Assembly: GCF_000025605.1 (NCBI RefSeq)
Contig: NC_013894.1
Location: 605,529 to 669,528, forward strand
Origin: Thermocrinis albus DSM 14484
Lineage (GTDB): Bacteria; Aquificota; Aquificia; Aquificales; Aquificaceae
DNA: 64,000 nucleotides
Reading direction: 5' to 3'
Within the stretch, counting starts at the first letter, position 1, and each line of letters begins with the position of its first letter. Under the pieces are notes generated by a model, which searched no databases, was not told where the DNA came from, and saw only the letters and a program-made list of their open reading frames with translations. The translations under genes were made by a program, and so were the position numbers. This document shows, in pieces, positions 2,067-40,601 of this stretch.

Positions 2067-2990
2067 ATGAGAGAGGTAGGCTTTGAGGAGAGAAAGGTTT
2101 CGGGTACGTTCTTTGCCCTAGGTGGGCTTACAGCAGCTTTGCTTTTGTTCCTTATGGAAAACGTCATCTTGAAAGGAATAAGTAATGTACTGTGGTACCG
2201 TTTTGCCTTCGGCACCTATGCCATTGCCGCCGTTCTTTACGTACTGAGCTTTATTTTTCGTAAAAGAAAGCTGGAGAATCTTTCGAGCTTTGTCCTTTAC
2301 GCAGGCCTTGTGTTTAACCTAACAGGTATGATGAGTAGGGGATGGGAGTCTTATCAAATGGGTGCTTTTCACCCTCCGTGGAGCAACCTCTTCGAGGCTC
2401 TCACTTTCTGGAGTTTTGTGGTGGGTGTTTTATACCTCCTTCTGGAGAAAAGTTATAACCTGAGAGTGTTGGGGGTCTTTGTGGTTCCCATCATGGCCGG
2501 CCTGTCTGGTTTTGCCATATTCTACGCCTCCCACCAGCTCACGCCTCTGATGCCGGCACTGAGAAGCTACTGGCTTTATCTTCATGTGGTCACCGCTTTT
2601 ATAGGATACGCGGGTTTTACGGTGGCCTTCGGTGCAGCGGTTCTTTATCTTCTGAGGGATCGCATAGGCGGTCTGCCTTCTGAGGATACTTTGGATGAGA
2701 TAACCTACAGGGCCATAGTCCTTGTGTTTCCTGTCTGGACACTGTCCATAATACTGGGTGCCATGTGGGCCAGCGAAGCGTGGGGTGGCTATTGGAGCTG
2801 GGATCCTAAGGAGGTTTGGTCTCTGATAGTGTGGTTGTTTTTCGGGGCTTATCTGCACGCACGCCACATGCTGGGTTGGAGGGGCAAGAGAACCGCATGG
2901 ATGGTAGTGGCAGGTTTTGTGACGGTCCTCGTATGTTTCTTCGCCATAAATCTGTTCTTCCCAGGTCTCCACAGCTATGCTACTGATTGA
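2067..2990 (+). CDS. ccsA: Cytochrome c biogenesis protein CcsA/ResC type
   Basis: Integral membrane protein of the system II cytochrome c maturation pathway, which carries heme and attaches it to apocytochromes outside the inner membrane. The 307-residue protein has about eight hydrophobic segments. The diagnostic tryptophan-rich WWD-type motif WGGYWSWDPKEVWSL lies near residues 240-254, and conserved histidines flank the segments. No CcsB partner lies next to it. It stands alone between a divergent hemerythrin pseudogene and a convergent EAL-HDOD gene, whose stop lies one base past its own. Confidence 0.88.
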   Translation: MREVGFEERKVSGTFFALGGLTAALLLFLMENVILKGISNVLWYRFAFGTYAIAAVLYVLSFIFRKRKLENLSSFVLYAGLVFNLTGMMSRGWESYQMGAFHPPWSNLFEALTFWSFVVGVLYLLLEKSYNLRVLGVFVVPIMAGLSGFAIFYASHQLTPLMPALRSYWLYLHVVTAFIGYAGFTVAFGAAVLYLLRDRIGGLPSEDTLDEITYRAIVLVFPVWTLSIILGAMWASEAWGGYWSWDPKEVWSLIVWLFFGAYLHARHMLGWRGKRTAWMVVAGFVTVLVCFFAINLFFPGLHSYATD

Positions 2991-2991
2991 A

Positions 2992-4212
2992 TCAAAAACC
3001 TTCAAAGATGGCTCTGGCTTCCTCCTTAGCCTTTTCCATAGCTTTACGTACACTCTCGGGAGTGGTCCTAAGTACCTTCGCTACCTTCTGTATGGTGTCT
3101 TCGTTTCCCGCATCTTCCAGAAGTTCCACCACCGATAGGAGAAAACCTATCTCGTTGAGCTTTCTTTCGTAAGCTTCCTGTATGTCTTTGTCCAGTGCCA
3201 GTTCACGGGCAACGTCTTCCGGTTCCTCTCCAAATATCTCTTTGGATAAGGAGAAGAGGCCAGCCATGTAAGCCTTGTCTTTCACATGAGGTGCATAGAT
3301 CTCAGCCAGCTTCTCAGTGAGTAATGCTCTACACACCGCCCTCTCCCAAAGATCCTTATCCTCCTCGGGGGCGAACATCTCGGAAAGTGCCAGTACGATG
3401 GCGAATTTCACCACATTGTCGAAACCGAGATACACCACAGCCTCATCCAGTTTACTTATGTTCCTCGCCTTTGGAAAGAAGGCAGAGTTTACAAACTTAA
3501 GAAGTTTGTAAGTTGCGCCCACGTCCTTTTCCAACACCTCCACCACCTTCTTCATATCCTTCTCTCTTATAGCATTGTACAGCTTAAATAGCGTACTTTT
3601 GAGGAAAGCTATGGTGCGTGTATCTCTTATAACTACAGGTTTAGAGAGATAAAAGCCTTGAAAATACTGAAAGCCTATAGAATACGCCCTTTCATAGTCT
3701 TCCTTAGTTTGTATGTTTTTTGCTATTATTCCTTTCTTCAAACTCTTAAGTATGCTAACAACTTCCTTAAGTTCCTCATCATCGTAAGGGTTGTTTCGAA
3801 AATCTATCTTCACAAACTGACACTTGTTAAGAAGGGGAAGATAGTCTATTTTCTCAAAACCGAAATCATCTATACAGAACTTGAACCCCCTCTTAAGGAG
3901 AGTGTTGATAGAGGCAAGGAGCTCGTTGCTCAACCTTTTGTTCTCCACCAGCTCAATACCTACGTACTCCGGCGGTAGAAGATCGAACATCTCCGCTGAG
4001 AGAAATATGGCGGGTACGTTTACGAAAACAAGGTGTCCGTTTCCTACTCTCTGTGGTCCCATCTGGACAAGCACATCTACAGCCATACCGGTGGCCTTAA
4101 GAGGGTCCAAGTTCTCAGGATACTGTCCGGTTAATCTGTCTTGCACAAAGATCTCATAGAAGGCTACCTTACCATCTCTATCGTATATAGCTTGTTTGCA
4201 AACTACATGCAT
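2992..4212 (-). CDS. Degenerate EAL plus HDOD domain signalling protein
   Basis: A 406-residue two-domain protein. The N-terminal half (about 1-195) has the fold of an EAL phosphodiesterase: YEIFVQD where EAL would be, then FVNVP, IELVE and CIDDFG. The catalytic acids are not kept: EAL is replaced by YEI, and the later Glu-Lys motif reads AKNIQ. So it probably does not hydrolyse c-di-GMP and acts as a binder or adaptor. The C-terminal half (about 200-390) is an HDOD domain (LLKFVNSAFF). Proteins of this layout regulate motility or surface behaviour in other bacteria. A TATAAT lies 6 nt before the ATG, inside the stop region of the upstream riboflavin synthase gene. Confidence 0.85.
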   Translation of the reverse strand: MHVVCKQAIYDRDGKVAFYEIFVQDRLTGQYPENLDPLKATGMAVDVLVQMGPQRVGNGHLVFVNVPAIFLSAEMFDLLPPEYVGIELVENKRLSNELLASINTLLKRGFKFCIDDFGFEKIDYLPLLNKCQFVKIDFRNNPYDDEELKEVVSILKSLKKGIIAKNIQTKEDYERAYSIGFQYFQGFYLSKPVVIRDTRTIAFLKSTLFKLYNAIREKDMKKVVEVLEKDVGATYKLLKFVNSAFFPKARNISKLDEAVVYLGFDNVVKFAIVLALSEMFAPEEDKDLWERAVCRALLTEKLAEIYAPHVKDKAYMAGLFSLSKEIFGEEPEDVARELALDKDIQEAYERKLNEIGFLLSVVELLEDAGNEDTIQKVAKVLRTTPESVRKAMEKAKEEARAIFEGF

Positions 4213-19280: not shown

Positions 19281-20227
19281 TGGCTGAGGAGTTTCTGTCA
19301 CAGGAAGAGGTGAACCTCCTTCTGCAGGCGCTGGGTAAGGAGGAGGAGACTAAAACTACCGTAACTCACAAAGAGGTGAAGCCCCTTGATATTAGTACAC
19401 TGGAACACATCTCGGCTAGTAGAATAGCTGGACTTGAACTCATATTGGAACGTTGGGTTTCTTCCCTCAAAAGATCCCTCTCATCGGTTATGGTGAGCAT
19501 ACCAGCAGTACTCAAAGAAGGTGTAAGTGTTGTCAGGTTCTCAGAGTTTGTTTCCCAACTACCCTTCCCCTCAGCAATAGGCTTTTTTAACGTACACCCC
19601 CTAAGGGGTGTAAGTATGTTGGTCCTTGATCCCAGGATAATATATATGACCGTCAGTAGCTTGTTTGGTGGACCACCTAAACCCTACAAAATAGAGGGGA
19701 AAGAATTCACCAAGATAGAGTTGAGAATAGTGCAGAAAATTTTAGAAATATGTTACAGAGAGTTGGAGGAAGTCTGGAACACCGTTATGGAGGTGAAAGT
19801 CATCCCACAAGGATTGGAAACTAATCCTTCTCTTCTGACGATAGCACGCCCCAAAGAGAAGTTTATAGTACTCAAGCTTCTTGTATCTCTGGAGGGGAGC
19901 GAAGGTTATATGTATCTGGCAATACCTGAAGAATCTTTGGATCCCTACAAGGAGGTCCTTAAAGGAATCACGGAACTTAGATCGCCGGAGGTTTCCAACA
20001 AGCTCTTGCAGGCTTTAGAAGAGATACCTTTAAACCTAGAGGTGATACTGGGTAGACAGAAAATACAGCTGGGGGATCTTCTCAATATGAAGGTGGGTGA
20101 TACTATGATACTACAGAAAGGTCTCAGAGAACCTGTGGAGGTTAGGGTAAGTGGCGTGCCCAAGGCTTTAGCCTTTCTAGGACAGGTAGGGAAAAGGAAA
20201 GCCATAAAGATTCTAAGGTTTTACTAA
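19280..20227 (+). CDS. fliM: Flagellar motor switch protein FliM
   Basis: Switch-complex protein, 315 residues. The CheY-binding N-terminus reads FLSQEEVNLLLQALG (residues 5-19). The middle domain contains PLDISTLEHISASRIAGLELI. The C-terminal SpoA-like domain (about 240-310) has LGRQKIQLGDLLNMKVGDTMIL. Its ATG shares one base with the fliF stop (TGATG). The last 15 bp overlap the convergent PII-like gene. No fliG or fliN lies beside it here, so the rest of the switch is elsewhere. Confidence 0.93.
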   Translation: MAEEFLSQEEVNLLLQALGKEEETKTTVTHKEVKPLDISTLEHISASRIAGLELILERWVSSLKRSLSSVMVSIPAVLKEGVSVVRFSEFVSQLPFPSAIGFFNVHPLRGVSMLVLDPRIIYMTVSSLFGGPPKPYKIEGKEFTKIELRIVQKILEICYRELEEVWNTVMEVKVIPQGLETNPSLLTIARPKEKFIVLKLLVSLEGSEGYMYLAIPEESLDPYKEVLKGITELRSPEVSNKLLQALEEIPLNLEVILGRQKIQLGDLLNMKVGDTMILQKGLREPVEVRVSGVPKALAFLGQVGKRKAIKILRFY

Positions 20228-20512
20228 GGTAACTTGAGAGAGAACACATAAGCCACCGTATCTTTTCAGCACAGGAGATACCTCCTTAATAAGTCTTTCT
20301 GCGAGGTTATCATCGCACACAACTACCACGTACACGTTTTCCATTGCTCCGGAGGGTTCGTCCCCTCTCATAATACCCCTCTCTCCCATTCCCATAACAT
20401 GCTCCATCACGCTGTAACCGGGGACTTTGAGTTGATGAAGGACTTCGATGACCTTCTCCAACTGGTACTTGCCTATTATGATCTCCACCTTGGTGGCTGT
20501 CAACCTCTCCAT
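20213..20512 (-). CDS. sbtB: PII-like regulatory protein, SbtB-type
   Basis: A 99-residue ferredoxin-like-fold protein of the PII superfamily: KVEIIIGKYQLEKVIEVLHQLKVPGYSVME at the start, a flexible T-loop region (GMGERGIMRGDEPSGAMEN, about residues 40-58), then VYVVVVCDDNLAERLIKEVSPVLKRYGGLCVLS. Placement 3 nt downstream of an SbtA-type bicarbonate transporter is the classical arrangement for SbtB, which senses adenyl nucleotides and inhibits SbtA in cyanobacteria (known). The C-terminal Cys pair of some cyanobacterial SbtBs is absent. GGGGTGAAGG, spanning the sbtA stop, serves as ribosome site. The symbol rests on context plus fold. Confidence 0.75.
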   Translation of the reverse strand: MERLTATKVEIIIGKYQLEKVIEVLHQLKVPGYSVMEHVMGMGERGIMRGDEPSGAMENVYVVVVCDDNLAERLIKEVSPVLKRYGGLCVLSQVTLVKP

Positions 20513-20515
20513 CCT

Positions 20516-21487
20516 TCACCCCCAGAGCAAGTTGGCCACGTAATAGTATAAGGGAATACCGATAGATATGTTGAAGGGAAAGGTTACAGAGAGGGACATG
20601 GTGATGTATAATCCTGGGTTGGCCTCAGGTAAAGCTATTCGCAACGCTGCCGGAACAGCTATGTAGGAAGCACTGGCCGACAGAACCGCCAACAGAAAAG
20701 CATCCCCCATTTCTGTGCCTACCAACTTGGCCAACATGAGGGCCACGTGGGCGTTAACGATGGGAACAAAGATAGCAAAAATGAGGAGGAAGGGTCCTAC
20801 TTTCTTTAACTCTCCCACTCTTCTTGAAGCTACCAGACCCATGTCCAACAAGAAAAAGGCGAGAAAGCCTTTAAAGAGATCACCGTATAAAGGTTTCATA
20901 GCTTCCCAACCCTTCTCTCCTGTAATATAACCCACTATCAAAGATCCCAACAGGATAAGAACAGACCCGTTAAAGAAGGCTTCCCTCAGAAGATCCTTCC
21001 ACTCTATGTGTACCCCATCAGATCTCTTACCGAAGAGGTTTGCCAGTATGAGGCCCAGTATTATAGCGGGAGATTCCATGAGAGTCATGGCAGCCACCAT
21101 ATGACCTCCGTGGTGAACACCCAAGGACTGAAGAAAGGTGGTGGCTGTCACGAAGGTGACCGCACTGATAGAACCGTAAGTGGCGGCTATACCGGCGGCG
21201 TTGTAAACGTCCAACTTCCATCGTAGTAAAAAGAAGCTGTACAAAGGAACCAGTACAGCCATGAGCATAGCTATAAGGAGTGTGATCAGCACATACTGAT
21301 TTAAACCACTGTGAGCTATCTTGTACCCTCCCTGTAAGCCTATGGATATGAGGAGGTAGAGGGAAAAGAGTTTAGGAAGAGGGTGCGGTATGTCAAGGTC
21401 AGACTTCAGAAGAGTTGCCAGAAATCCTAGAAAGAAGAAAAGTATGGGAGGTTGGAGTATGTTGTTAAGGACAAGCTCCCAGCTCAT
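20516..21487 (-). CDS. sbtA: SbtA-type sodium-dependent bicarbonate transporter
   Basis: A 323-residue integral membrane protein with about ten hydrophobic segments and the SbtA/DUF897 pattern. Visible features are LFSLYLLISIGLQGGYKI near residue 40, the conserved AATYGSISAVTFVTAT segment near 104, then AAMTLMESPAIILGLILAN, and in the second half FLLDMGLVASRR and SASASYIAVPAALRIALPEANPGLYITMSLSVTFPFNI. In cyanobacteria this family imports HCO3- with Na+. Start ATG 21487 overlaps the COG0523 stop (ATGA); an upstream in-frame start lies inside that gene and is less likely. In an rTCA autotroph it would supply inorganic carbon. Confidence 0.85.
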   Translation of the reverse strand: MSWELVLNNILQPPILFFFLGFLATLLKSDLDIPHPLPKLFSLYLLISIGLQGGYKIAHSGLNQYVLITLLIAMLMAVLVPLYSFFLLRWKLDVYNAAGIAATYGSISAVTFVTATTFLQSLGVHHGGHMVAAMTLMESPAIILGLILANLFGKRSDGVHIEWKDLLREAFFNGSVLILLGSLIVGYITGEKGWEAMKPLYGDLFKGFLAFFLLDMGLVASRRVGELKKVGPFLLIFAIFVPIVNAHVALMLAKLVGTEMGDAFLLAVLSASASYIAVPAALRIALPEANPGLYITMSLSVTFPFNISIGIPLYYYVANLLWG

Positions 21488-22392
21488 GCCTGTACACCCC
21501 CTCTTTTGATAAATACCAAGAAGCTGGAACCTCTGTAGGAGGGTATCTCCTCTCCTATGTCCCAAAGACCGAAGGCGTAGTTAACGATGACAGGATTTTT
21601 CATATTGGCTATGCGCACTATACCCTTCACCCTTATCACGTCAGCGGGAAGGTTTTTGAGAAGATCAACCAGCTTATCATACTCCAAGGGCTGAGGAAAC
21701 TGGATAACCTGTTCCGCTACGCGGTGCTGGTGTTGGTGAGCGGGTGACGGTTGTGTGTACTTACTCAGATCATCCAAGACAAATATACCCTCAAACACCT
21801 CAGCGGGTAACTGTCCGAAGGATGTTCTGTATACCCTAAGATAACTAAATATTCTCTCACCGGTAAATACATTCCTTATGGAGTACTCCTCCCAGATTTT
21901 CTTTATTTCCTTTTCCAACTCATCACACCTTTGAGCATCTACCAGATCCACCTTGTTGATGACCACTATGTTGGACCCTCCTATCTGGTATCTGGCAGTA
22001 CTTTCATTCTTGTATTTCTCAAAATTCTTAGCGTCCACCACACATATGACACCTTCTATACTACATCCCAAACTTTGTAGACTCAGCATAACGGGGAAGG
22101 GCTCTGCGGCTCCCGATGTTTCCACCAACAAAACCTCAGGATCATACTTCTCCCTTATCTCCTTAATGCCTTTCTCAAACTCTGCATGTAAGGAACAACA
22201 TATGCAACCTTCTGCCAGTTCTACCACCGAGGAATACACATTCTGAAGCACCTTCCCATCTACACCTACTTCACCTATCTCGTTTACCAGAACCGCCACC
22301 CGTTTTCCACCAAAATGCTCTCTGGCAGCCCGTACGAGGAGAGTAGTCTTACCGCTACCTAAAAATCCTGTTACCACAAAGGCAGGTAACAT
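21484..22392 (-). CDS. COG0523 (CobW/P47K-like) metal-chaperone GTPase
   Basis: A 302-residue G3E-family GTPase. Walker A GFLGSGKTT lies at about residue 9, the metal-binding CxCC motif GCICCSLH at about 62, Walker B VETSGAAEP at about 92 and NKVD at about 148. A His-rich stretch (PAHQHQHRV) precedes the C-terminal CobW_C domain. Family members deliver Zn, Co or Ni, and some are tied to carbonic anhydrase supply under metal limitation (known). It overlaps sbtA by four bases, so a link to bicarbonate handling is plausible (inference). The metal cannot be told from sequence. Confidence 0.85.
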   Translation of the reverse strand: MLPAFVVTGFLGSGKTTLLVRAAREHFGGKRVAVLVNEIGEVGVDGKVLQNVYSSVVELAEGCICCSLHAEFEKGIKEIREKYDPEVLLVETSGAAEPFPVMLSLQSLGCSIEGVICVVDAKNFEKYKNESTARYQIGGSNIVVINKVDLVDAQRCDELEKEIKKIWEEYSIRNVFTGERIFSYLRVYRTSFGQLPAEVFEGIFVLDDLSKYTQPSPAHQHQHRVAEQVIQFPQPLEYDKLVDLLKNLPADVIRVKGIVRIANMKNPVIVNYAFGLWDIGEEIPSYRGSSFLVFIKRGGVQA

Positions 22393-22399
22393 GGCGGTA

Positions 22400-22693
22400 T
22401 TACTCTCCGCCGTACTCTACTGAGTCGATCTCCTCCATAAACTGTTCTATCTGAAAGGTTATGAAGTTGGCAAGGTCCTTAACATCCTTGTCCATGTATT
22501 CCGGATCTATGTCTATCCGTTTTTCGTGAATACTGTGCCCTTCTACCACATACTTCACCTTCAGATACGGAACTGAGACAGTTCCACATCCTGCCTCCTG
22601 CTCCGTGGGAAAGCAGACCTCTATATCTATGTCCGGATTGGCCATATTCTTTCTCACTTCCTGTGCCAAAAGCTCCAGCTTGCTTATGTCCAT
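22400..22693 (-). CDS. Unknown 97-residue protein in the for-sbt operon
   Basis: Acidic soluble protein with no recognised domain. It has two isolated cysteines (EVCFP, AGCGT), a beta-rich centre (GTVSVPYLKVKYVVEG) and a C-terminal helix (VKDLANFITFQIEQFMEEID). It begins 10 nt after the ferredoxin-like subunit gene and ends 7 nt before the COG0523 gene, so it is clearly co-transcribed. Its size and place suggest an accessory to the oxidoreductase or to metal delivery, but nothing in the sequence decides that. Confidence 0.65.
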   Translation of the reverse strand: MDISKLELLAQEVRKNMANPDIDIEVCFPTEQEAGCGTVSVPYLKVKYVVEGHSIHEKRIDIDPEYMDKDVKDLANFITFQIEQFMEEIDSVEYGGE

Positions 22694-22703
22694 GGCTATT
22701 CCC

Positions 22704-22928
22704 TCAGTCAGAAGCTGTTACCATAACCATCTGGATACAGTTTCTCTTGAGAAGATCTGAGCAAACGTAAACGCATATGGCACAACCTTTGCACCTGGCG
22801 TAGTTGACCCACGCCACGTGCTTAGACTCATGGTACATTAGGGTGTTGGGTTCAGGACAGAACAGAACACACTGCTTGCAGTTGTATTTGGCACAATCAC
22901 TTTCCTTTACATCAGCCACATAGTACAT
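22704..22928 (-). CDS. forE: Ferredoxin-like small subunit of five-subunit 2-oxoacid:ferredoxin oxidoreductase (ForE-like)
   Basis: A 74-residue protein with two [4Fe-4S]-type cysteine sets: C-x4-C-x2-C-x3-C-P at about residues 12-25 and C-x2-C-x2-C-x3-C at about 46-56. It is the fifth gene of a D-A-B-G-E order that matches the forDABGE operon described for Hydrogenobacter thermophilus. Its likely role is passing electrons between ferredoxin and the catalytic subunits. The start has only a weak GGGA ribosome site and is preceded, 17 nt upstream, by copy A of the structured RNA element. Confidence 0.8.
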   Translation of the reverse strand: MYYVADVKESDCAKYNCKQCVLFCPEPNTLMYHESKHVAWVNYARCKGCAICVYVCSDLLKRNCIQMVMVTASD

Positions 22929-22945
22929 TCCCGTTACTCGGATTA

Positions 22946-23026
22946 CCCATCTTCGGGTGCCGGGCTATTTGTAACGCGCCCTTTAATGGGTGTCCAGAGA
23001 CCCGGCAGGCGCCATTTGGACACCCA
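22946..23026 (-). ncRNA. Structured RNA element, copy A (between forG and forE)
   Basis: On the minus strand the element starts 19 nt after the forG stop and ends 17 nt before the forE ATG. Helix 1 pairs 23026-23018 with 22995-22987 (9 bp). Its loop contains GCGCCT (23012-23007), able to pair with GGGCGC (22981-22976). The loop also holds TGCCGGGT (23007-23000), able to pair with GCCCGGCA (22965-22958). A CCC/GGG hairpin (22957-22946) closes the element. A-rich joints AAAT, TTAAA and TACAAATA are shared with the other copies. No known family recognised. Confidence 0.7.
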
Positions 23027-23045
23027 TATTAAGAATTTTATATGA

Positions 23046-23729
23046 TCAGCCGGTGAGAGCTTCTTCCTCAACCCATCCCCTTTCCTCTGCTATACGGAAG
23101 GCTTCCCTTATAACCTGCATGTTCTTCTCCAGCAGCTCCATCTTCTTCTTGAACTTCTTTTCTATAGCACTGTCCAAGGCCGTTGTCCCACCCGAAGCCA
23201 CGAAGGTGTTACCTAAGAATCTCTCCCTCACAGCTTGCTCAATGTGTTCAAAGTTCACCAATCTGGTGATACCAAAGAACAGACCTATCATAGCCATGTT
23301 GGTGGCTAGCTCTGTACCCGCTACCTCCAGGGCCAGCTTTGTGGCGGGGAACATGTAAACTCGCGTGTTGAGTTCCTTAAGAACCTGCCAATCTTCGGGG
23401 GGAATTATATCGGCATCGGTGTTAATGATAACCATACCGTTTTCCTTGAGTCCCGAGTAAAAAGGCATAGTGTAAGACTTACCGTGAGTTATAACTTGAG
23501 GGTGATAGATCATTATCACGTTGGGGTAAACCACCTCTCCTACTTCGTAGATGGGCTCGTCTGAAACCCTCACGTAGGCCTCAACGGGTGCCATACGCTT
23601 CTCGGAACCGAAGAAAGGTACCAAAGTGGCGTACTTACCGGCCGCAGTCATAGCGTTACCAAGTATGTGGGCGGAGGTGACAACCCCCTGCCCACCGACA
23701 CCAGCTATCCTTATGTTATACCTTTTCAT
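23046..23729 (-). CDS. forG: 2-oxoacid:ferredoxin oxidoreductase gamma subunit
   Basis: A 227-residue gamma-type subunit: N-terminal IRIAGVGGQGVVTSAHILGNAM, central VYPNVIMIYHPQ, then ELATNMAMIGLFFGIT. It forms part of the complex that reductively carboxylates an acyl-CoA with ferredoxin. forB overlaps its start by four bases (ATGA). After its stop there is an AT-rich tract and RNA element copy A before forE. Gene order favours the For (2-oxoglutarate) over the Por (pyruvate) complex, but sequence comparison would be needed to separate them. Confidence 0.87.
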   Translation of the reverse strand: MKRYNIRIAGVGGQGVVTSAHILGNAMTAAGKYATLVPFFGSEKRMAPVEAYVRVSDEPIYEVGEVVYPNVIMIYHPQVITHGKSYTMPFYSGLKENGMVIINTDADIIPPEDWQVLKELNTRVYMFPATKLALEVAGTELATNMAMIGLFFGITRLVNFEHIEQAVRERFLGNTFVASGGTTALDSAIEKKFKKKMELLEKNMQVIREAFRIAEERGWVEEEALTG

Positions 23730-24592
23730 GCCTTCACCTCCTGTTGCTCCTTCTCCAGGTTCTCGAAGAACTCTCTTACTTCATCTGTCATCCACTCGTA
23801 GAAGGCAAAATCTTGCTTTTCCCTCTTTCTGGCATCTTCCAACACCTTCTCTGTGGGTATAGAGTACTCTATGTTACAGGATGTGTAAGCGTGTATGAAG
23901 GTAGGACCAAAGTGTCTGGCTGCCAGTATGGCCCTTCTTATAACCTTAGCTATTCTCTTGGGGTTAGTGGGTGCCAGCTTTGCCACGTACACGCATCCCG
24001 CTACTTTAGCCAGCTCCACAGCGTTTATTTTGTCGAACTGCTTTCCTTTTGGAGCCATTTTAAGCTGAACACCCTTGGGTGACATACCGCTCTCTTGTCC
24101 ACCGGTGTTGCCGTAAACCTCGTTATCCACCATGATGGTGGTGAACTTCTCTCTTCTGAACCAAGAGTGCATGGTCATACCGAAACCTATATCAATGAGA
24201 CCTCCGTCACCTGCTATAACCACCACGTCTTTCACTTTGTCGGGGAACCTTATCGTTAGAGCTCTCTTGAGACCAGAGGCCACAGCGTTAGTGTCACCGT
24301 AGTTACCATAGATGAAGGGAACGGCAGCCTGTGACAGAGCAAGTCTCGCACAACCCGCTGTACCTATCACTATGGTGTCCTCGGGATTGGGAAGGGCAGC
24401 GTAGAACACCCTTATGAAGTAGGCCATAAAGCACCCTGCACACATAGGGTGTTCTTCCACCAACTCCTTAAACTGTCCCAGTTGCTGCACATCTACCTGT
24501 CTGCCGAACTGGCCATACTTGACCAGGTCCACGTAATCCTTTGGCATGTATCTTTCAAAACCTGGAGAAATCCTCACATACTCCAGACCCAT
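23726..24592 (-). CDS. forB: 2-oxoacid:ferredoxin oxidoreductase beta subunit (TPP-binding)
   Basis: A 288-residue beta subunit that binds thiamine diphosphate and an Fe-S cluster. Visible features are the CAGC pair near residue 51, a further cysteine in GTAGCARLA, the TPP/Mg motif GDGGLIDIGFGMT near residue 147, DNEVYGNTGGQ near 176, and SCNIEYS for the late cysteine. GGAGGTGTTAAC precedes the ATG. It follows forA by 21 nt and overlaps forG by four. Confidence 0.9.
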   Translation of the reverse strand: MGLEYVRISPGFERYMPKDYVDLVKYGQFGRQVDVQQLGQFKELVEEHPMCAGCFMAYFIRVFYAALPNPEDTIVIGTAGCARLALSQAAVPFIYGNYGDTNAVASGLKRALTIRFPDKVKDVVVIAGDGGLIDIGFGMTMHSWFRREKFTTIMVDNEVYGNTGGQESGMSPKGVQLKMAPKGKQFDKINAVELAKVAGCVYVAKLAPTNPKRIAKVIRRAILAARHFGPTFIHAYTSCNIEYSIPTEKVLEDARKREKQDFAFYEWMTDEVREFFENLEKEQQEVKA

Positions 24593-24613
24593 GTTAACAC
24601 CTCCTTAAAGTTT

Positions 24614-25783
24614 TTATACCACCACTTTTCTTTCCTTCTTGATGCCAAAAGCATCGTAAATCTTTTCCATAATAAGCTCTACGGGGAGAGTCATACCACC
24701 GTAGACCCTCGGTCCACCTATCACTATGTCGTTGTTGGGAAGGACCGCTTTAACTTCCTTAGCCAACCATCCCACTATGTTGTGCTCCGGCACTATCACC
24801 GCCTTTGCCTTCCTGAGAACTTCCCTTATCTCTCTCTCAGGGAAGGGTCTTATAGACTTTACCTTTACGAGGCCTACGTTGAGACCTTCCATCTGAGCAT
24901 ACCTAACCGCTTCCCTTCCTTGGGCTGCAGCACAGCCAGAGGCCACTACAAAGACCTCCGCATCAGGATTAACCACCTCAATGGGGCCTCCCAGATATTT
25001 ATAAATGTACTTCATGGCCCTTATGTTGGAGGACCAAACCTCCTGTTGCCATACAGCGTGTATAAGGTAACTCATGAAGTTGGACTTTTGAACGGGAGCG
25101 TCTCTCTGTATACGTGCAGGTGGTATCTCACAGTCGGTAGGAGGAACGGGGGCTTTGTAAGGATCTCTGGGAGGGAGTTTCATGTCCTCAGGTGTCATGT
25201 TAACGTAACCTTTGGCGTGGGTAACAAAGAAGCCTTCCGTACAGACCGCCACAGGTATGTACACGTCTACCTTCTCTGCTATTACGAAAGCTGCGAGGGT
25301 AAAGTCAAAAACATCCTGCTGGTTTTCTGCATGTAACACCACCATACCGCAGTGAAGGAGGTAGGCTATCTCCACATTGTCAGGCTGTATGGAGAGGGGT
25401 GCGTTCACCACCCTTGTGAGGACACCCAAAACCGCGGGGAGTCTGTGACCGGGCCACGAAGCTATAGCCTCCAGACCTCTCAGAAGACCTGGTCCTGAGG
25501 TAGCGGTAAAGGCTCTCGCTCCACCTCTCACAGCACCCGCTATAGCGGACATAGCGCCGTACTCTTCTTCTGCTCTGTAGTAATCTCTGAGATAACCCTG
25601 TGCCCACAAATCCCCCACCAGGTGCATCACTTCAGACTGAGGTGTTATGGGATAGGCTATCGCTATGTCCACGTTGGCACGTTTCACAGCCTCGGCCATA
25701 GCCTGGGCACCTGTTATAAACTTACGCTCTCTAGGTGCCTCTAAGAGAAGGTAATCGGCATCTACTACTCTCTGTTCAGGCAT
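24614..25783 (-). CDS. forA: 2-oxoacid:ferredoxin oxidoreductase alpha subunit
   Basis: A 389-residue alpha subunit (pyrimidine-binding half of the TPP fold). It has AIAYPITPQSEVMH, EEEYGAMSAIAGAVRGGARAFTATSGPGL and a C-terminal transketolase-like domain with VKSIRPFPEREIREV and PEHNIVGWLAKEV. Start ATG 25783 follows GGAAGGGGAG by 2-3 nt. An in-frame GTG-type start at 25807 would lie within the terminal hairpin of RNA element copy B and is rejected. Supplies the acyl-CoA binding half of the enzyme that fixes CO2 in the reductive TCA cycle. Confidence 0.88.
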   Translation of the reverse strand: MPEQRVVDADYLLLEAPRERKFITGAQAMAEAVKRANVDIAIAYPITPQSEVMHLVGDLWAQGYLRDYYRAEEEYGAMSAIAGAVRGGARAFTATSGPGLLRGLEAIASWPGHRLPAVLGVLTRVVNAPLSIQPDNVEIAYLLHCGMVVLHAENQQDVFDFTLAAFVIAEKVDVYIPVAVCTEGFFVTHAKGYVNMTPEDMKLPPRDPYKAPVPPTDCEIPPARIQRDAPVQKSNFMSYLIHAVWQQEVWSSNIRAMKYIYKYLGGPIEVVNPDAEVFVVASGCAAAQGREAVRYAQMEGLNVGLVKVKSIRPFPEREIREVLRKAKAVIVPEHNIVGWLAKEVKAVLPNNDIVIGGPRVYGGMTLPVELIMEKIYDAFGIKKERKVVV

Positions 25784-25798
25784 GTCTCCCCTTCCTAA

Positions 25799-25886
25799 CC
25801 CAGACATCTCGTGTCTGGGGCCGGGCTATTTTTAACGCGCCCTTTGAGGGTGTCCAGAGACCCGGCAGGCGCCATTTGGACACCCT
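25799..25886 (-). ncRNA. Structured RNA element, copy B (between forD and forA)
   Basis: Starts 8 nt after the forD stop and ends 15 nt before the forA ATG on the minus strand. It is almost identical to copy A through all three interlocking helices. Helix 1 is 9 bp with an A-T closing pair unlike copy A, so the closing pair covaries. The joint reads TTAAAAATA and the third helix loses its last pair. The terminal hairpin is longer (CCCAGACA/TGTCTGGG, 25819-25799) and unrelated in sequence to that of copy A. It ends next to the ribosome site. Confidence 0.7.
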
Positions 25887-25894
25887 TAAACTCA

Positions 25895-26611
25895 TCATTC
25901 TGTCTCCGTAACTTGCTCTCCTCTTCTGGGTATGAGGAGATAGGCGTACTCTCCGTAATCTAGAACGGAGAGTGTCTCGTAGTTTTCCGGCGGTAGAGAT
26001 GGGTTTTCTGGTGGAAGTTTGGGCTCCCACTCTATGCCCATCTCCTTCCTCACCTGCACTACCACATTCTTGAATCTCCTTATCTCCTCTGCATGAACAT
26101 CTCTCAGGGACACCATAGCGTCCTCGTGTCCCATCTCGGCGCACAGAGCTATGGTGAAGCAGTTGGTACCAGCTCTTATCATTCTGAGAGATAGGTTAGC
26201 ATAGTGACAGTGCACACCCACAAATATAGCTACCTCTATTTTGTTGTGAAGGATCGTGAGGTTGGGGTGGTTGGGATTTATCTCCGCTTCCGGATCTATT
26301 TTGGGATACTTAGGTCTGTAGTCCGGCATAGGAATTATCCTGCAGTTGGGTATTTCCATAGCCAGCTCTAGCACGGCTTTTGCCTTCTCCATAGCACTGG
26401 CGTTCCACCCCCACAGAACAAGAGGACCCGGAAATATGGTGGGATTCCTTCTGGTGAGGAGGGCCTTGGCGGCCTCACGCATGGCCACCTCTTCGTCCAC
26501 TATTTCTCCATAAAGAAGAGCCTTGCCAGGTGGTGGAAGCTCTACGCCTTCAAAGGCTGGAGGCGTAGGTATATAACCGGCCGGCCCAGGAACCACCTTC
26601 ATCTTCTGCAT
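25895..26611 (-). CDS. forD: Fifth (delta-like) subunit of 2-oxoacid:ferredoxin oxidoreductase, CdhB/CO-dehydrogenase-epsilon-like
   Basis: A 238-residue first gene of the forDABGE-type operon. The centre (GPLVLWGWNASAMEKAKAVLELAMEIPNCRIIPMPDYRP, read in pieces from about residue 66) and VAIFVGVHCHYANLSLRMIRAG resemble the small CO dehydrogenase/acetyl-CoA synthase epsilon fold, which is found in the five-subunit enzymes of Aquificales. The start is ATG 26611, 4 nt after GGAGGTG. A longer frame to 26671 would begin upstream of the predicted transcription start. Its catalytic role is unknown; it may bind CoA or nucleotide. Confidence 0.78.
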   Translation of the reverse strand: MQKMKVVPGPAGYIPTPPAFEGVELPPPGKALLYGEIVDEEVAMREAAKALLTRRNPTIFPGPLVLWGWNASAMEKAKAVLELAMEIPNCRIIPMPDYRPKYPKIDPEAEINPNHPNLTILHNKIEVAIFVGVHCHYANLSLRMIRAGTNCFTIALCAEMGHEDAMVSLRDVHAEEIRRFKNVVVQVRKEMGIEWEPKLPPENPSLPPENYETLSVLDYGEYAYLLIPRRGEQVTETE

Positions 26612-26643
26612 ACTGCACCTCCAGGCTTTTGGTGGTTTTTCAA

Positions 26644-26753: not shown

Positions 26754-28574
26754 ATGTGGGATCTGACCGTTAAGATAGGTGGAGAAGGTGGAGAAGGTGT
26801 CATATCAGCCGGAGACTTCCTTACGGAAGCCTGTGCCAGGGCGGGATATTGGGTGGTTAACTTCAAGAGCTTCCCGGCGGAGATAAAGGGTGGGTACGCT
26901 CAGTCAGTGGTCCGTGTATCGGACGAGAGACTTTTCTCAACAGGTGACAGCTTTGACGTGCTTTGCTGTTTCAACGGCGAAGCCTATGAATTCAACAAAA
27001 AGCATCTTGTAGGTGGTACCGTAATGGTGTACGACAGTTCCGACTTTGAACCAGAGGACCACGATGGCGTGATCATGTATCCCGTTCCTCTCTCGTATCT
27101 CGCAAGGGACGTTATGAAGGCTTATATAACTAAGAACGTTATAGCCTTGGGTGTTTTGTGTGGCCTGCTAGATGTACCCGTGGAACCTATAAAGGAATCC
27201 ATAAAGGCCAAGTTTGGGAGAAAAGGAAGTCAAGTGGTGGACATGAACCTCAGAGCTCTGGAGCTGGGACTTGACTTTGCAAAGAGGGAACTTACGAAGA
27301 GAGACCCCTACCGTTTTCCACCTGCGAAGGAACCTATGGACGTAGTTATTATGGAAGGGAATCAGGCTATAGCGAAGGGTGCCGTGGTGGCAGGCTGTAA
27401 GTTTTACGCGGCGTATCCCATAACACCAGCTACAACAGTGGGTAATTACATAGTGGAGGACCTTATACGTACAGGTGGCTGGCTGTATCAGGCTGAGGAC
27501 GAGATAGCCTCTTTGGGTATGGCCCTAGGAGCGTCTTTTGCCGGTGTGAAGGCGATGACCGCTACCTCCGGTCCAGGCCTCTCACTTATGACGGAATTTC
27601 TCTCCTACTCCGGCATGACGGAACTTCCCGTTGTTATAGTGGATGTCCAGAGGGTAGGGCCTGCTACAGGTATGCCCACAAAACACGAGCAGGGAGATCT
27701 ATACCATGCTGTTTTTGGAGGGCACGGTGAGTTCCCACGAGCTGTCCTAGCACCTATCTCTGTAGAAGACAGCTTCTACATGACCATAGAGGCCTTCAAT
27801 CTTGCCGAAAAATACCAAATACCCGTCATTCTGTTAACAGATGCATCCATGTCTCTGAGAACGGAGTCCTTCCCTTCTCCTCGTCTTAAGGACATAAAGA
27901 TTGTAGATAGATGGGTCTATAAGGCCAGTGAAGATCCGGAGGGAAGATTTAGAAGGGCAGGTCGTTTTCTGCGATACGCTCTGTTTACTTCTGACGGAAT
28001 AACACCCATGGGTACACCAGGTGATCCTGATGCTATACATGCCGTAACGGGACTAGAAAGGCAGGAAAACTCAGATCCCAGAAACAGACCCGATGTGAGA
28101 ACGTGGCAGATGGAAAAGCGTTTTAAGAAGCTTGAGAAACTCCTTAGAGAAGATGCGGAGAGATTTTACGAGATAGACGGACCCTTTGATAAGGCGGAGT
28201 TGGGCTTGATAACGTGGGGTCTTACAGCCTCAGTAACCAAAGAAGCCGTAAGAAGGCTCAGAAACAGAGGTGTGAAGGTGAACGCTCTTTACATCAAACT
28301 TCTCTATCCCTTAAGGGGTGATGTGGTGGAGAGGTTTGCCGAAAGGTGCGAAAGAGTTGTGGTTCCTGAAAGTAACTGGAGCGGTCAGTTGGCCACTCTG
28401 CTGAGAGCCTTTTCCCACGTAAGACCCATAAGCTACTGCGTTTACAGGGGCGAGCCCTTTATCCCCAAAGAGATAGAAGATCTGGTAGTCTACCTTCTGG
28501 AAAACCCAACCTTAACTGAAGGTAGGCTAACACCTTCCCACCTTTATGGGGAGAAATCTTACGGACTGATATGA
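26754..28574 (+). CDS. korA: 2-oxoglutarate:ferredoxin oxidoreductase alpha subunit (gamma-alpha fusion)
   Basis: A 606-residue fusion of a gamma domain (KIGGEGGEGVISAGDFLTEA at the start, to about residue 190) and an alpha domain (AAYPITPATTVGNYI, EDEIASLGMALGASFAGVKAMTATSGPGLSL, KHEQGDLYHAVFGG). This architecture is that of the two-subunit KorAB enzymes which carboxylate succinyl-CoA to 2-oxoglutarate in the reductive TCA cycle. A strong GGAGGTGAAGG precedes the ATG. It is divergent from the five-subunit operon. After its stop comes RNA element copy D, then korB. Confidence 0.92.
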   Translation: MWDLTVKIGGEGGEGVISAGDFLTEACARAGYWVVNFKSFPAEIKGGYAQSVVRVSDERLFSTGDSFDVLCCFNGEAYEFNKKHLVGGTVMVYDSSDFEPEDHDGVIMYPVPLSYLARDVMKAYITKNVIALGVLCGLLDVPVEPIKESIKAKFGRKGSQVVDMNLRALELGLDFAKRELTKRDPYRFPPAKEPMDVVIMEGNQAIAKGAVVAGCKFYAAYPITPATTVGNYIVEDLIRTGGWLYQAEDEIASLGMALGASFAGVKAMTATSGPGLSLMTEFLSYSGMTELPVVIVDVQRVGPATGMPTKHEQGDLYHAVFGGHGEFPRAVLAPISVEDSFYMTIEAFNLAEKYQIPVILLTDASMSLRTESFPSPRLKDIKIVDRWVYKASEDPEGRFRRAGRFLRYALFTSDGITPMGTPGDPDAIHAVTGLERQENSDPRNRPDVRTWQMEKRFKKLEKLLREDAERFYEIDGPFDKAELGLITWGLTASVTKEAVRRLRNRGVKVNALYIKLLYPLRGDVVERFAERCERVVVPESNWSGQLATLLRAFSHVRPISYCVYRGEPFIPKEIEDLVVYLLENPTLTEGRLTPSHLYGEKSYGLI

Positions 28575-28578
28575 AACT

Positions 28579-28683
28579 GGGTGGCCAAATACCGCCTGCG
28601 GGGGCCATGGCCACCTTGAAGAGGCGGGATACAAATACCCCCGCACCTGGGCTGTGTGAGTTTGCACAGCTTGGGTAACCAGG
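28579..28683 (+). ncRNA. Structured RNA element, copy D (between korA and korB)
   Basis: Starts 4 nt after the korA stop and ends 7 nt before the korB ATG. It keeps the architecture of copies A-C with different sequence. Helix 1 pairs GGGTGGCC (28579-28586) with GGCCACCT (28609-28616). Helix 2 pairs CCGCCT (28592-28597) with AGGCGG (28622-28627). Helix 3 pairs TGCGGGGG (28597-28604) with CCCCCGCA (28638-28645). AAATA and TACAAATA joints are conserved. The terminal hairpin is larger, CCTGG/CCAGG around GCTGTG/CACAGC. The compensatory changes in all three helices against the other copies are the main support. Confidence 0.72.
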
Positions 28684-28690
28684 TTCCAAT

Positions 28691-29566
28691 ATGTTGAAAC
28701 CAGCCGACTATAGGAGTGATGTTGAACCTACGTGGTGTGCCGGATGTGGAGACTTTGGTGTTCTCGCTGCCATAACTCGTGCTTTTGCTGAGCTGGGCTT
28801 AGAACCTCACCGGGTAGTGTCTGTCTCCGGCATAGGTTGTTCTTCGAGGCTTCCCCTCTTCCTCAAAAACTACTCCATACACACCCTCCACGGCAGGGCC
28901 ATACCGGTGGCTATAGGTGTGAAACTGGCAAGACCGGATCTTACCGTTATAGTGGAAACGGGGGATGGTGATCTCTTTTCCATAGGTGCCGGTCATAATC
29001 CCCATGCTGCCAGAAGGAATGTGGATATCACCGTACTGTGTATGGATAACCAGGTCTACGGCCTTACTAAGAACCAGGTATCTCCCACATCAAGGGAATG
29101 GCTTTACGGGTCCCTCACACCCTATGGATCCATAGACAGACCTCTCAACCCTATCGCCACCATGTTGGCCTTTGGTGCCACTTTTGTAGCACAGACTTAT
29201 GCCGGTAACTTACAACACATGACGTATGTTATTAAGGAGGCCATAAAACACAGGGGATTCTCCTTCGTTAACATAATCTCTCCCTGTCCCACCTTTAACA
29301 GAGTGGACACATTTCAGTACTACAAGGGTAAAGTGAAAGATATCAACCAGTTGGGTCACGATCCGTCCAGTTACGAAGCTGCCCTCCGTGTGGCTTTTCA
29401 TGATCTGGACCATTATTATGATCCGGAGGCACCTGTTCCCATAGGGATATTCTACAGAGTTCAGATGGAAACTTACGAAGAACGTATGGCAAAGGTAAAG
29501 GCTCGATACGGAGGTTTAGAGGACCTTCAGGAAATCATAGATGCCTGCAAACCCAAGAGGGTTTAG
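28691..29566 (+). CDS. korB: 2-oxoglutarate:ferredoxin oxidoreductase beta subunit
   Basis: A 291-residue beta subunit. WCAGCGDFGVLAA near residue 16 gives two Fe-S cysteines, SGIGCSSRL a third, GDGDLFSIGAGHN (about 96) is the TPP/Mg motif, MDNQVYGLTKNQVSPTS follows, and SPCPTFN provides the late cysteine. It forms the TPP-binding half of KorAB. No clear Shine-Dalgarno lies in the 7 nt between RNA element D and the ATG, so the element may control its translation (inference). Confidence 0.93.
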   Translation: MLKPADYRSDVEPTWCAGCGDFGVLAAITRAFAELGLEPHRVVSVSGIGCSSRLPLFLKNYSIHTLHGRAIPVAIGVKLARPDLTVIVETGDGDLFSIGAGHNPHAARRNVDITVLCMDNQVYGLTKNQVSPTSREWLYGSLTPYGSIDRPLNPIATMLAFGATFVAQTYAGNLQHMTYVIKEAIKHRGFSFVNIISPCPTFNRVDTFQYYKGKVKDINQLGHDPSSYEAALRVAFHDLDHYYDPEAPVPIGIFYRVQMETYEERMAKVKARYGGLEDLQEIIDACKPKRV

Positions 29567-40092: not shown

Positions 40093-40601
40093 GCACACCT
40101 TTCTGACCGGACGTACTCTGTCCGGTGCCGGGCTATTTGTATAGCGCCCTTTAGGCTGAGGATGTACCCGGCAGGCGCTATTTCCCCAGCCTTGTGTTCA
40201 TTTACTGTGTGAAAAAGATGGTACATAGCCACAAAAAACTGCAGCAAGAAGAGGGAAAGAGACAGATAAGAGAGTCTTCTGAAACGTACCCTCATGGGAT
40301 GATGGACAGATATAAGGTCTATGTTACCTAACTTCCTCTTCTCTTTCTTCATATACAAGGAGAGAGAATAACTCAGTAAGAGCAGTGAAAGAAGGACAAT
40401 GTCCATGAGCTTTAAACCACCCAGAACAATCTTCAGCATCAACAAAGACAGAGCCACCATGTAAAATCTGGCCAGTATCCTACCGTAAAATCTACCTGCT
40501 AGATCCTTGTACTCTTTCTCTCTGAGTAACACGGGTGCTACAACGCTCACCAGCATAAAGAGGGATCCGGTGTAGAGAGAGAGAAGAAGCACCTCAATCA
40601 T
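40074..40601 (-). CDS. DUF4149/TMEM205-like membrane protein with a C-terminus read through an RNA element
   Basis: A 175-residue frame with four hydrophobic segments in about residues 1-135 (LLLSLYTGSLFMLVSVVAPVLL; MVALSLLMLKIVLGGLKL; MDIVLLSLLLLSYSLSLYM; LSLSLFLLQFFVAMYHLF) and an RVRFRRLSYLSLS stretch, like DUF4149/TMEM205 proteins. After HTVNEHK the frame has no stop. It passes through the whole of RNA element copy C, adding a polar, basic tail of about 40 residues, and ends inside infC. This looks as if the element displaced the original stop codon. The start overlaps the diguanylate cyclase stop by 8 nt. Confidence 0.65.
   Translation of the reverse strand: MIEVLLLSLYTGSLFMLVSVVAPVLLREKEYKDLAGRFYGRILARFYMVALSLLMLKIVLGGLKLMDIVLLSLLLLSYSLSLYMKKEKRKLGNIDLISVHHPMRVRFRRLSYLSLSLFLLQFFVAMYHLFHTVNEHKAGEIAPAGYILSLKGAIQIARHRTEYVRSERCACKTTG
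40106..40181 (-). ncRNA. Structured RNA element, copy C (upstream of infC)
   Basis: Minus strand. Helix 1 GGCTGGGG (40181-40174) pairs with CCTCAGCC in eight pairs with a sequence different from copies A, B and D. GCGCCT and TGCCGGGT in the loop pair with downstream GGGCGC and GCCCGGCA as in copy A. The joints AAATA, TAAA and TATACAAATA are conserved. The terminal hairpin is ACCGGAC/GTCCGGT (40126-40106), ending 13 nt before the infC ATG and just ahead of its AAAGGTG. Unlike the other copies, its 5' half lies inside an upstream reading frame. Confidence 0.7.

Follow-up and report, generated by a model that had tools for sequence, protein, structure and literature searches.

A probable inorganic-carbon import pair in the 2-oxoglutarate:ferredoxin oxidoreductase operon of Thermocrinis albus

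We analysed a stretch of 64,000 nucleotides (the window) of the closed genome of Thermocrinis albus DSM 14484 (positions 605529-669528 of 1,500,577 bases; genome label G000), in which the genes of 2-oxoglutarate:ferredoxin oxidoreductase (OGOR), a CO2-fixing enzyme of the reverse tricarboxylic acid (rTCA) cycle, were followed on the same strand by genes for an SbtA-like transporter and a PII-like protein. The operon probably paired this enzyme with an inorganic-carbon import pair. Supply of inorganic carbon to the rTCA cycle was the best reading of the sequence, and one that comparison of genomes supported well, because the transporter belonged to the Sbt_1 family, a PII-like gene adjoined it, its linkage to the for genes was conserved, and it was exchanged with the DabBA system in the same slot of related operons. 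An earlier note, made from the letters of the window, had proposed a carbon-concentrating module for the rTCA cycle. The conserved linkage and the exchange with DabBA supported the supply of inorganic carbon, but not a direct feed of OGOR, since this enzyme uses CO2. The acquisition of CO2 and bicarbonate by organisms that fix carbon through the rTCA cycle is largely unstudied, unlike that of cyanobacteria and other carboxysome users.

Layout of the operon

From about 26614 down to 20213, the minus strand encoded the following genes in this order:

25895..26614, minus strand: forD, OGOR delta subunit with a CO_dh epsilon-like domain (Pfam PF02552, E 4e-47)
24614..25807, minus strand: forA, OGOR alpha subunit (PF01855, E 2e-65); the conserved start was probably the ATG at 25783, since relatives begin at MPEQ
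23726..24592, minus strand: forB, OGOR beta subunit, thiamine-diphosphate binding (PF02775, E 2e-21)
23046..23729, minus strand: forG, OGOR gamma subunit (PF01558, E 2e-38; TIGR02175 above cut-off)
22704..22928, minus strand: forE, OGOR epsilon subunit, 2x[4Fe-4S] ferredoxin-like, with Fer4 domains (TIGR02179-type match below cut-off)
22400..22693, minus strand: U97, a conserved protein of 97 residues that followed forE in nearly every operon read
21484..22392, minus strand: COG0523-type GTPase with a nucleotide-binding CobW N-terminal domain (PF02492, E 7e-47) and a C-terminal PF07683 domain
20516..21487, minus strand: sbtA-like transporter of the Sbt_1 family, 323 residues (PF05982, E 8e-123)
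20213..20512, minus strand: PII-like protein of 99 residues in the sbtB position (PF00543, E 2e-13)

The gene set, the strand, the place and the short gaps given in the earlier note were all borne out by open reading frames, Pfam matches and gap measurements. Within the OGOR genes, forA and forB were 21 nucleotides apart and forB overlapped forG by 4 nucleotides, while an RNA element was present between forD and forA and another between forG and forE, where the spacing was wider. A promoter scan placed a sigma-70-like site 5' of forD (TTGACA-16-TAATAT, 26671-26644), and the 3' end of the operon lay tail-to-tail with fliM (20227). Judged by spacing and conservation, one transcript apparently ran from forD to the PII-like gene. 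It was improbable that the for genes formed a unit ending at forE and that U97, the COG0523 gene, sbtA and the PII-like gene were expressed from their own promoter. Such a division would be compatible with an operon defined by spacing only and with the sigma-70-like sites that the scan also found inside forG and the COG0523 gene. However, the gaps in question measured only 10 (forE-U97), 7 (U97-COG0523) and 3 nucleotides (sbtA-PII), COG0523 and sbtA overlapped by 4 nucleotides, and the short spacing was kept in 15 genomes. Moreover, no terminator-like site was found on the minus strand scanned from forE to sbtA, including the interval between forE and the COG0523 gene in which the earlier note had considered one.

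The identity of the enzyme was supported by comparison with Aquifex aeolicus: forDABGE encoded five subunits in the OGOR order delta-alpha-beta-gamma-epsilon with a long delta subunit (about 27 kDa), matching aq_1166-aq_1171a of Aquifex aeolicus, which was identified as OGOR by in-gel activity and mass spectrometry (PMC10052474). DabAB was reported to be abundant in the membrane of the same species (PMC10052474). The OGOR operons of A. aeolicus and Hydrogenobacter thermophilus had the five subunits in an order identical to that of the window and differed from it in the slot that follows: the former lacked carbon-uptake genes there and the latter had dabBA-PII. We take our genomes G001 and G029 to be A. 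aeolicus and H. thermophilus, respectively. The gene after forE-U97 in G001 (locus L137) encoded the C-terminal half of the large subunit of carbamoyl-phosphate synthase (CarB), a bicarbonate user.

Two uptake systems in one slot

To follow the locus among relatives, we mapped forD matches in 64 Aquificaceae genomes and Sbt_1 and DabA matches in 136 Aquificota genomes, and read 41 gene neighbourhoods. Of the 64 Aquificaceae genomes, 62 had a match to forD. The sbtA-PII pair followed forE-U97-COG0523 in 15 of these genomes from four genera. Of the 16 Aquificaceae genomes with an sbtA gene, 15 had it 917-974 nucleotides beyond U97 on the same strand. Since this placement was so well kept, the linkage of for and sbtA was not a matter of chance, and the for-sbtA-sbtB linkage that the earlier note had suggested looking for in related genomes was indeed conserved.

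Another 19 relatives from five genera had dabB-dabA in the identical slot (U97-dabA distance 2.4-3.3 kb), and wherever the reading covered the whole neighbourhood, a PII gene of its own came last, similar to sbtA-PII. The slot after U97 was usually preceded by a COG0523 gene. At one Dab locus (L134), DabA matched PF10070 (E 1e-245) and DabB was antiporter-like (Proton_antipo_M, E 3e-49). The PII protein of the Dab slot was CPII-like (5d4n, E 4e-37). The DAC complex of DabA and DabB performs vectorial CO2 hydration driven by the proton-motive force (PMC13144422), a machinery unrelated to the SbtA of the window, for which HCO3- symport would be expected. From its gene content, this place in the operon appears to be set aside for inorganic-carbon supply.

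Both states occurred within the genus of the window, with sbtA-PII in G000 and G051 and dab in G052 and G054. A twentieth slot of the Dab type, in G026, retained only a decayed remnant, in which a truncated dabA was joined to the final part of a Dab-type PII gene (78-91% identical to G025), and the same genome carried sbtA-PII elsewhere. Among the 64 Aquificaceae genomes, 14 had Sbt only, 38 DabA only, two had both and ten neither, so that the two systems were nearly exclusive (Fisher p 3e-6, a value not corrected for shared ancestry and including some incomplete genomes). The genome of the window was among the two that carried both systems, and the Dab module in it was located 374 kb from the for slot and was 88% identical to that of G025. 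Beside this second inorganic-carbon locus (dabB-dabA-PII; L166, G000:244000-262000, at about 2650-3400) there were repeats with open reading frame translations like those of a CRISPR array.

In the Hydrogenothermaceae, the modules were located between for and por. One genome (G077) had the order for-U97-COG0523-X-dabB-X-dabA-por, and in two others (G097 and G100; loci L062 and L053) dabB and dabA were separated by the sbtA-PII pair beside por, in the order dabB-X-sbtA-PII-dabA-por. By its gene content, the latter locus for inorganic carbon is a hybrid.

In a maximum-likelihood tree, the SbtA proteins of the slot did not form one clade (approximately unbiased test, p 0.0014). The protein of G057 grouped with Campylobacterota and that of G026 with G098, while one Pyrinomonadaceae sequence and one from an unclassified genome fell inside genus g7. 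The simplest reading of this tree would be that sbtA moved laterally and was recruited to this slot more than once, although it was tentative because of the long end branches, including that of the window's own protein.

The transporter, its partner and the form of carbon

The earlier note had assigned the transporter to the SbtA family, and the Sbt_1 model (SbtA, TC 2.A.83) indeed matched it end to end (residues 13-318, model positions 1-307/308), a placement by family model. As in the cyanobacterial SbtA-SbtB pair (Slr1512-Slr1513), a PII-like gene came immediately after the Sbt_1 gene; the cyanobacterial pair was linked to Calvin-Benson-Bassham genes whereas that of the window was linked to rTCA genes. 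The C-terminal CGPxGC redox R-loop that is present in some SbtB homologues was absent from the PII-like protein of the window, as from all 11 aligned proteins. A profile of the window-type PII group was nearest to CPII (5d4n, E 7e-9), followed by 3dfe (E 1e-6) and SbtB chains (E 5e-5). Therefore, the name SbtB-type, as used in the earlier note, was right for the gene position and the superfamily but would be tentative for the regulation, and by its profile the protein scored nearer to CPII than to SbtB. For the transporter, in which two inverted 5-TM repeats would be expected, a single-sequence AlphaFold2 model was too poor to be used (predicted local distance difference test score, pLDDT, 47).

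Several points weighed against a pairing of OGOR with inorganic-carbon import. The transporter had 30% identity to Slr1512 over 286 aligned residues. In Slr1512, the HCO3- ligands Ser114, Tyr140, Ser324 and Ser327 were placed by docking and found important by mutation (PMC8352866). Only two of the four were kept in the window transporter, as Ser108 (Ser114) and Ser274 (Ser324), while Tyr140 was replaced by Met134 and Ser327 by Ala277. Bicarbonate transport and PII binding by the window proteins are putative functions, and the Sbt/Dab counts are affected by shared ancestry as stated above. Genomes of the Aquifex type (g2) and the Hydrogenobaculum type (g5) kept for-U97 with no adjoining carbon-uptake genes in the genomes read, and thus the linkage was not obligatory. 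Finally, the substrate of OGOR is CO2, and its chemical form is not directly matched to a bicarbonate importer.

The replaced ligands, the 30% identity and a central cytoplasmic region about 42 residues shorter than in Slr1512 would also suit a protein that carries another substrate, such as a small anion or an organic acid, in which case the Sbt name would mislead. We considered this very improbable, since DabBA was exchanged for the transporter in one slot and the neighbours of such genes (purK, carB and the OGOR genes) all encode users of inorganic carbon. Accordingly, it was from the Dab exchange and the purK and carB neighbours that inorganic carbon was argued to be the substrate.

OGOR carboxylates succinyl-CoA with CO2 and not with bicarbonate, which is the substrate of biotin-dependent carboxylases and is also consumed by PurK and carbamoyl-phosphate synthase. 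Because OGOR uses CO2, a bicarbonate importer would feed it only indirectly. However, CO2 and bicarbonate interconvert rapidly at 80-90 C even without a catalyst, so that CO2 could still be supplied by such an importer. A search of the window's genome for carbonic anhydrases of the alpha and beta types found none. The same genome contained three biotin carboxylase candidates. Its pyruvate synthase operon porEDABG ran into a biotin carboxylase gene that overlapped the end of porG (L191, G000:749000-760000), so that here, too, an enzyme that fixes CO2 is linked to one that fixes bicarbonate.

The proposed mechanism would be as follows. The 323-residue SbtA-like protein would import bicarbonate by Na+ symport, and the PII-like protein would gate it in response to adenine nucleotides and possibly to bicarbonate, a response that has been reported for CPII. 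Shared transcription may match the entry of inorganic carbon to the amount of OGOR. The imported bicarbonate could be used directly by the biotin carboxylases of the cell, or it could dehydrate spontaneously at high temperature and provide CO2 for OGOR and pyruvate synthase. U97 would be an accessory protein that goes with OGOR, and the COG0523 GTPase one that goes with the inorganic-carbon slot.

Outside Aquificota, the closest sbtA-PII pairs were located directly before purK-purE, in Campylobacterota, or after carB, in a Pyrinomonadaceae genome (L040). These neighbours, besides pointing to inorganic carbon, were the main support for a general supply of bicarbonate, in which the pair would feed biotin carboxylases, PurK and CarB and would have settled in a strongly expressed operon with no special link to OGOR. 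The lateral transfer indicated by the SbtA tree and the presence of a dab module elsewhere in the window's genome agreed with this alternative as well. It was nevertheless rather unlikely, since two unrelated uptake systems were repeatedly found beside for, or in Hydrogenothermaceae beside por, and not in random strongly expressed operons. Returning to supply for the rTCA cycle, we would tentatively go one step further: the Aquificota OGOR operon may possess a dedicated, exchangeable slot into which SbtA-PII or DabBA-CPII was recruited repeatedly, with PII-switched uptake alongside the carboxylating enzyme, as an rTCA counterpart of the carboxysome-linked CO2-concentrating mechanism that would work without a compartment.

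The general idea has already been published. As far as the accessible text of Scott et al. 2024 goes (PMC10880623), that study surveyed dissolved inorganic carbon transporters in autotrophs, including Aquificota with the rTCA cycle, and stated that genes for such transporters or carbonic anhydrases are co-located with rTCA genes (the legend of its Fig. 2 names por and kor), an arrangement like that of the window locus. The same accessible text mentioned neither an exchange of SbtAB and DabBA-PII in one slot nor the COG0523/U97 context, and it did not name Thermocrinis. In a literature search for Thermocrinis albus and bicarbonate, the species was mentioned only once per paper. Thus, as far as this literature shows, three elements were new here: that two unrelated modules replace each other at one place in an operon, that this place has a COG0523/U97 context, and that the PII proteins are related to CPII. 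The mutual replacement of two unrelated uptake systems provides genomic evidence for a coupling of inorganic-carbon supply to a specific step of the rTCA cycle, and it yields small gene sets suitable for tests in E. coli or a cultured species of Aquificota.

Other elements of the locus

A second OGOR-type enzyme was encoded outside the operon:

26754..29566, plus strand: korA-korB, open reading frames

The korAB genes diverged from for out of one intergenic region, and a divergent korBA-for arrangement was likewise found in G025, G027, G028 and G029.

U97 followed forE nearly everywhere among the neighbourhoods read, which included much of Aquificota. The proteins of its family have about 100 residues and end in EID, followed by a GG motif. 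Its predicted fold was alpha-beta-beta-beta-alpha (model pLDDT 79); there was no Pfam family and no match among PDB sequences, and the best Foldseek hit was not significant (E 0.05). Paralogues in the genome of the window (G000:1435276-1435521 and 536367-536630) had ATP synthase genes or unrelated genes as neighbours, and U97 was therefore not specific to carbon fixation.

The two wider gaps of the operon contained copies of one RNA family, which also occurred elsewhere in the window:

25817..25885, minus strand: RNA element in the forD-forA gap, three crossing helices and then a hairpin, TnpB-associated RNA family
22956..23025, minus strand: second copy, in the forG-forE gap, same family
28579-28647, plus strand: further copy, same family
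40124-40191, minus strand: further copy, same family

The earlier note had counted these elements among the parts of the operon. However, the for operons read in relatives had no such insert, and their gaps measured 4-51 nucleotides (forD-forA, aligned ends) and 22-64 nucleotides (forG-forE). We rejected a role as native operon regulators: the elements were dispersed TnpB-associated repeats missing from the operon in relatives, and for this reason they were not native parts of the carbon module. A known riboswitch or ribozyme was dropped as well, since no Rfam family matched at E up to 5.

In other genomes, 17 places picked for a TnpB-like match on the same contig were compared. In these, a gene of the IS200/IS605 TnpB type (RNA-guided nuclease) lay on the strand of the RNA element, which was located at the 3' end of the match to this gene or up to about 550 nucleotides past it, and the open reading frame ran into the element where it was readable. 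Judged by these positions, the element sits in the place of the TnpB omega-RNA. The genome of the window had no match to a TnpB-type gene at E <= 0.001, so its copies appeared to be orphans.

The family was about 70 nucleotides long plus the hairpin, with three mutually crossing helices. Across 69 distinct copies, 99.0% of cells could pair and 14 of the 21 pairs had changed on both sides, values reached by none of 500 shuffles. At least one copy was present in 85 of the 136 Aquificota genomes. The genome of the window contained 35-36 copies, and many copies lay just 5' of start codons, several of them those of housekeeping genes; the genes concerned included ppa, tsf, trxA, rpsK, ftsH, ndk, forA, forE and korB.

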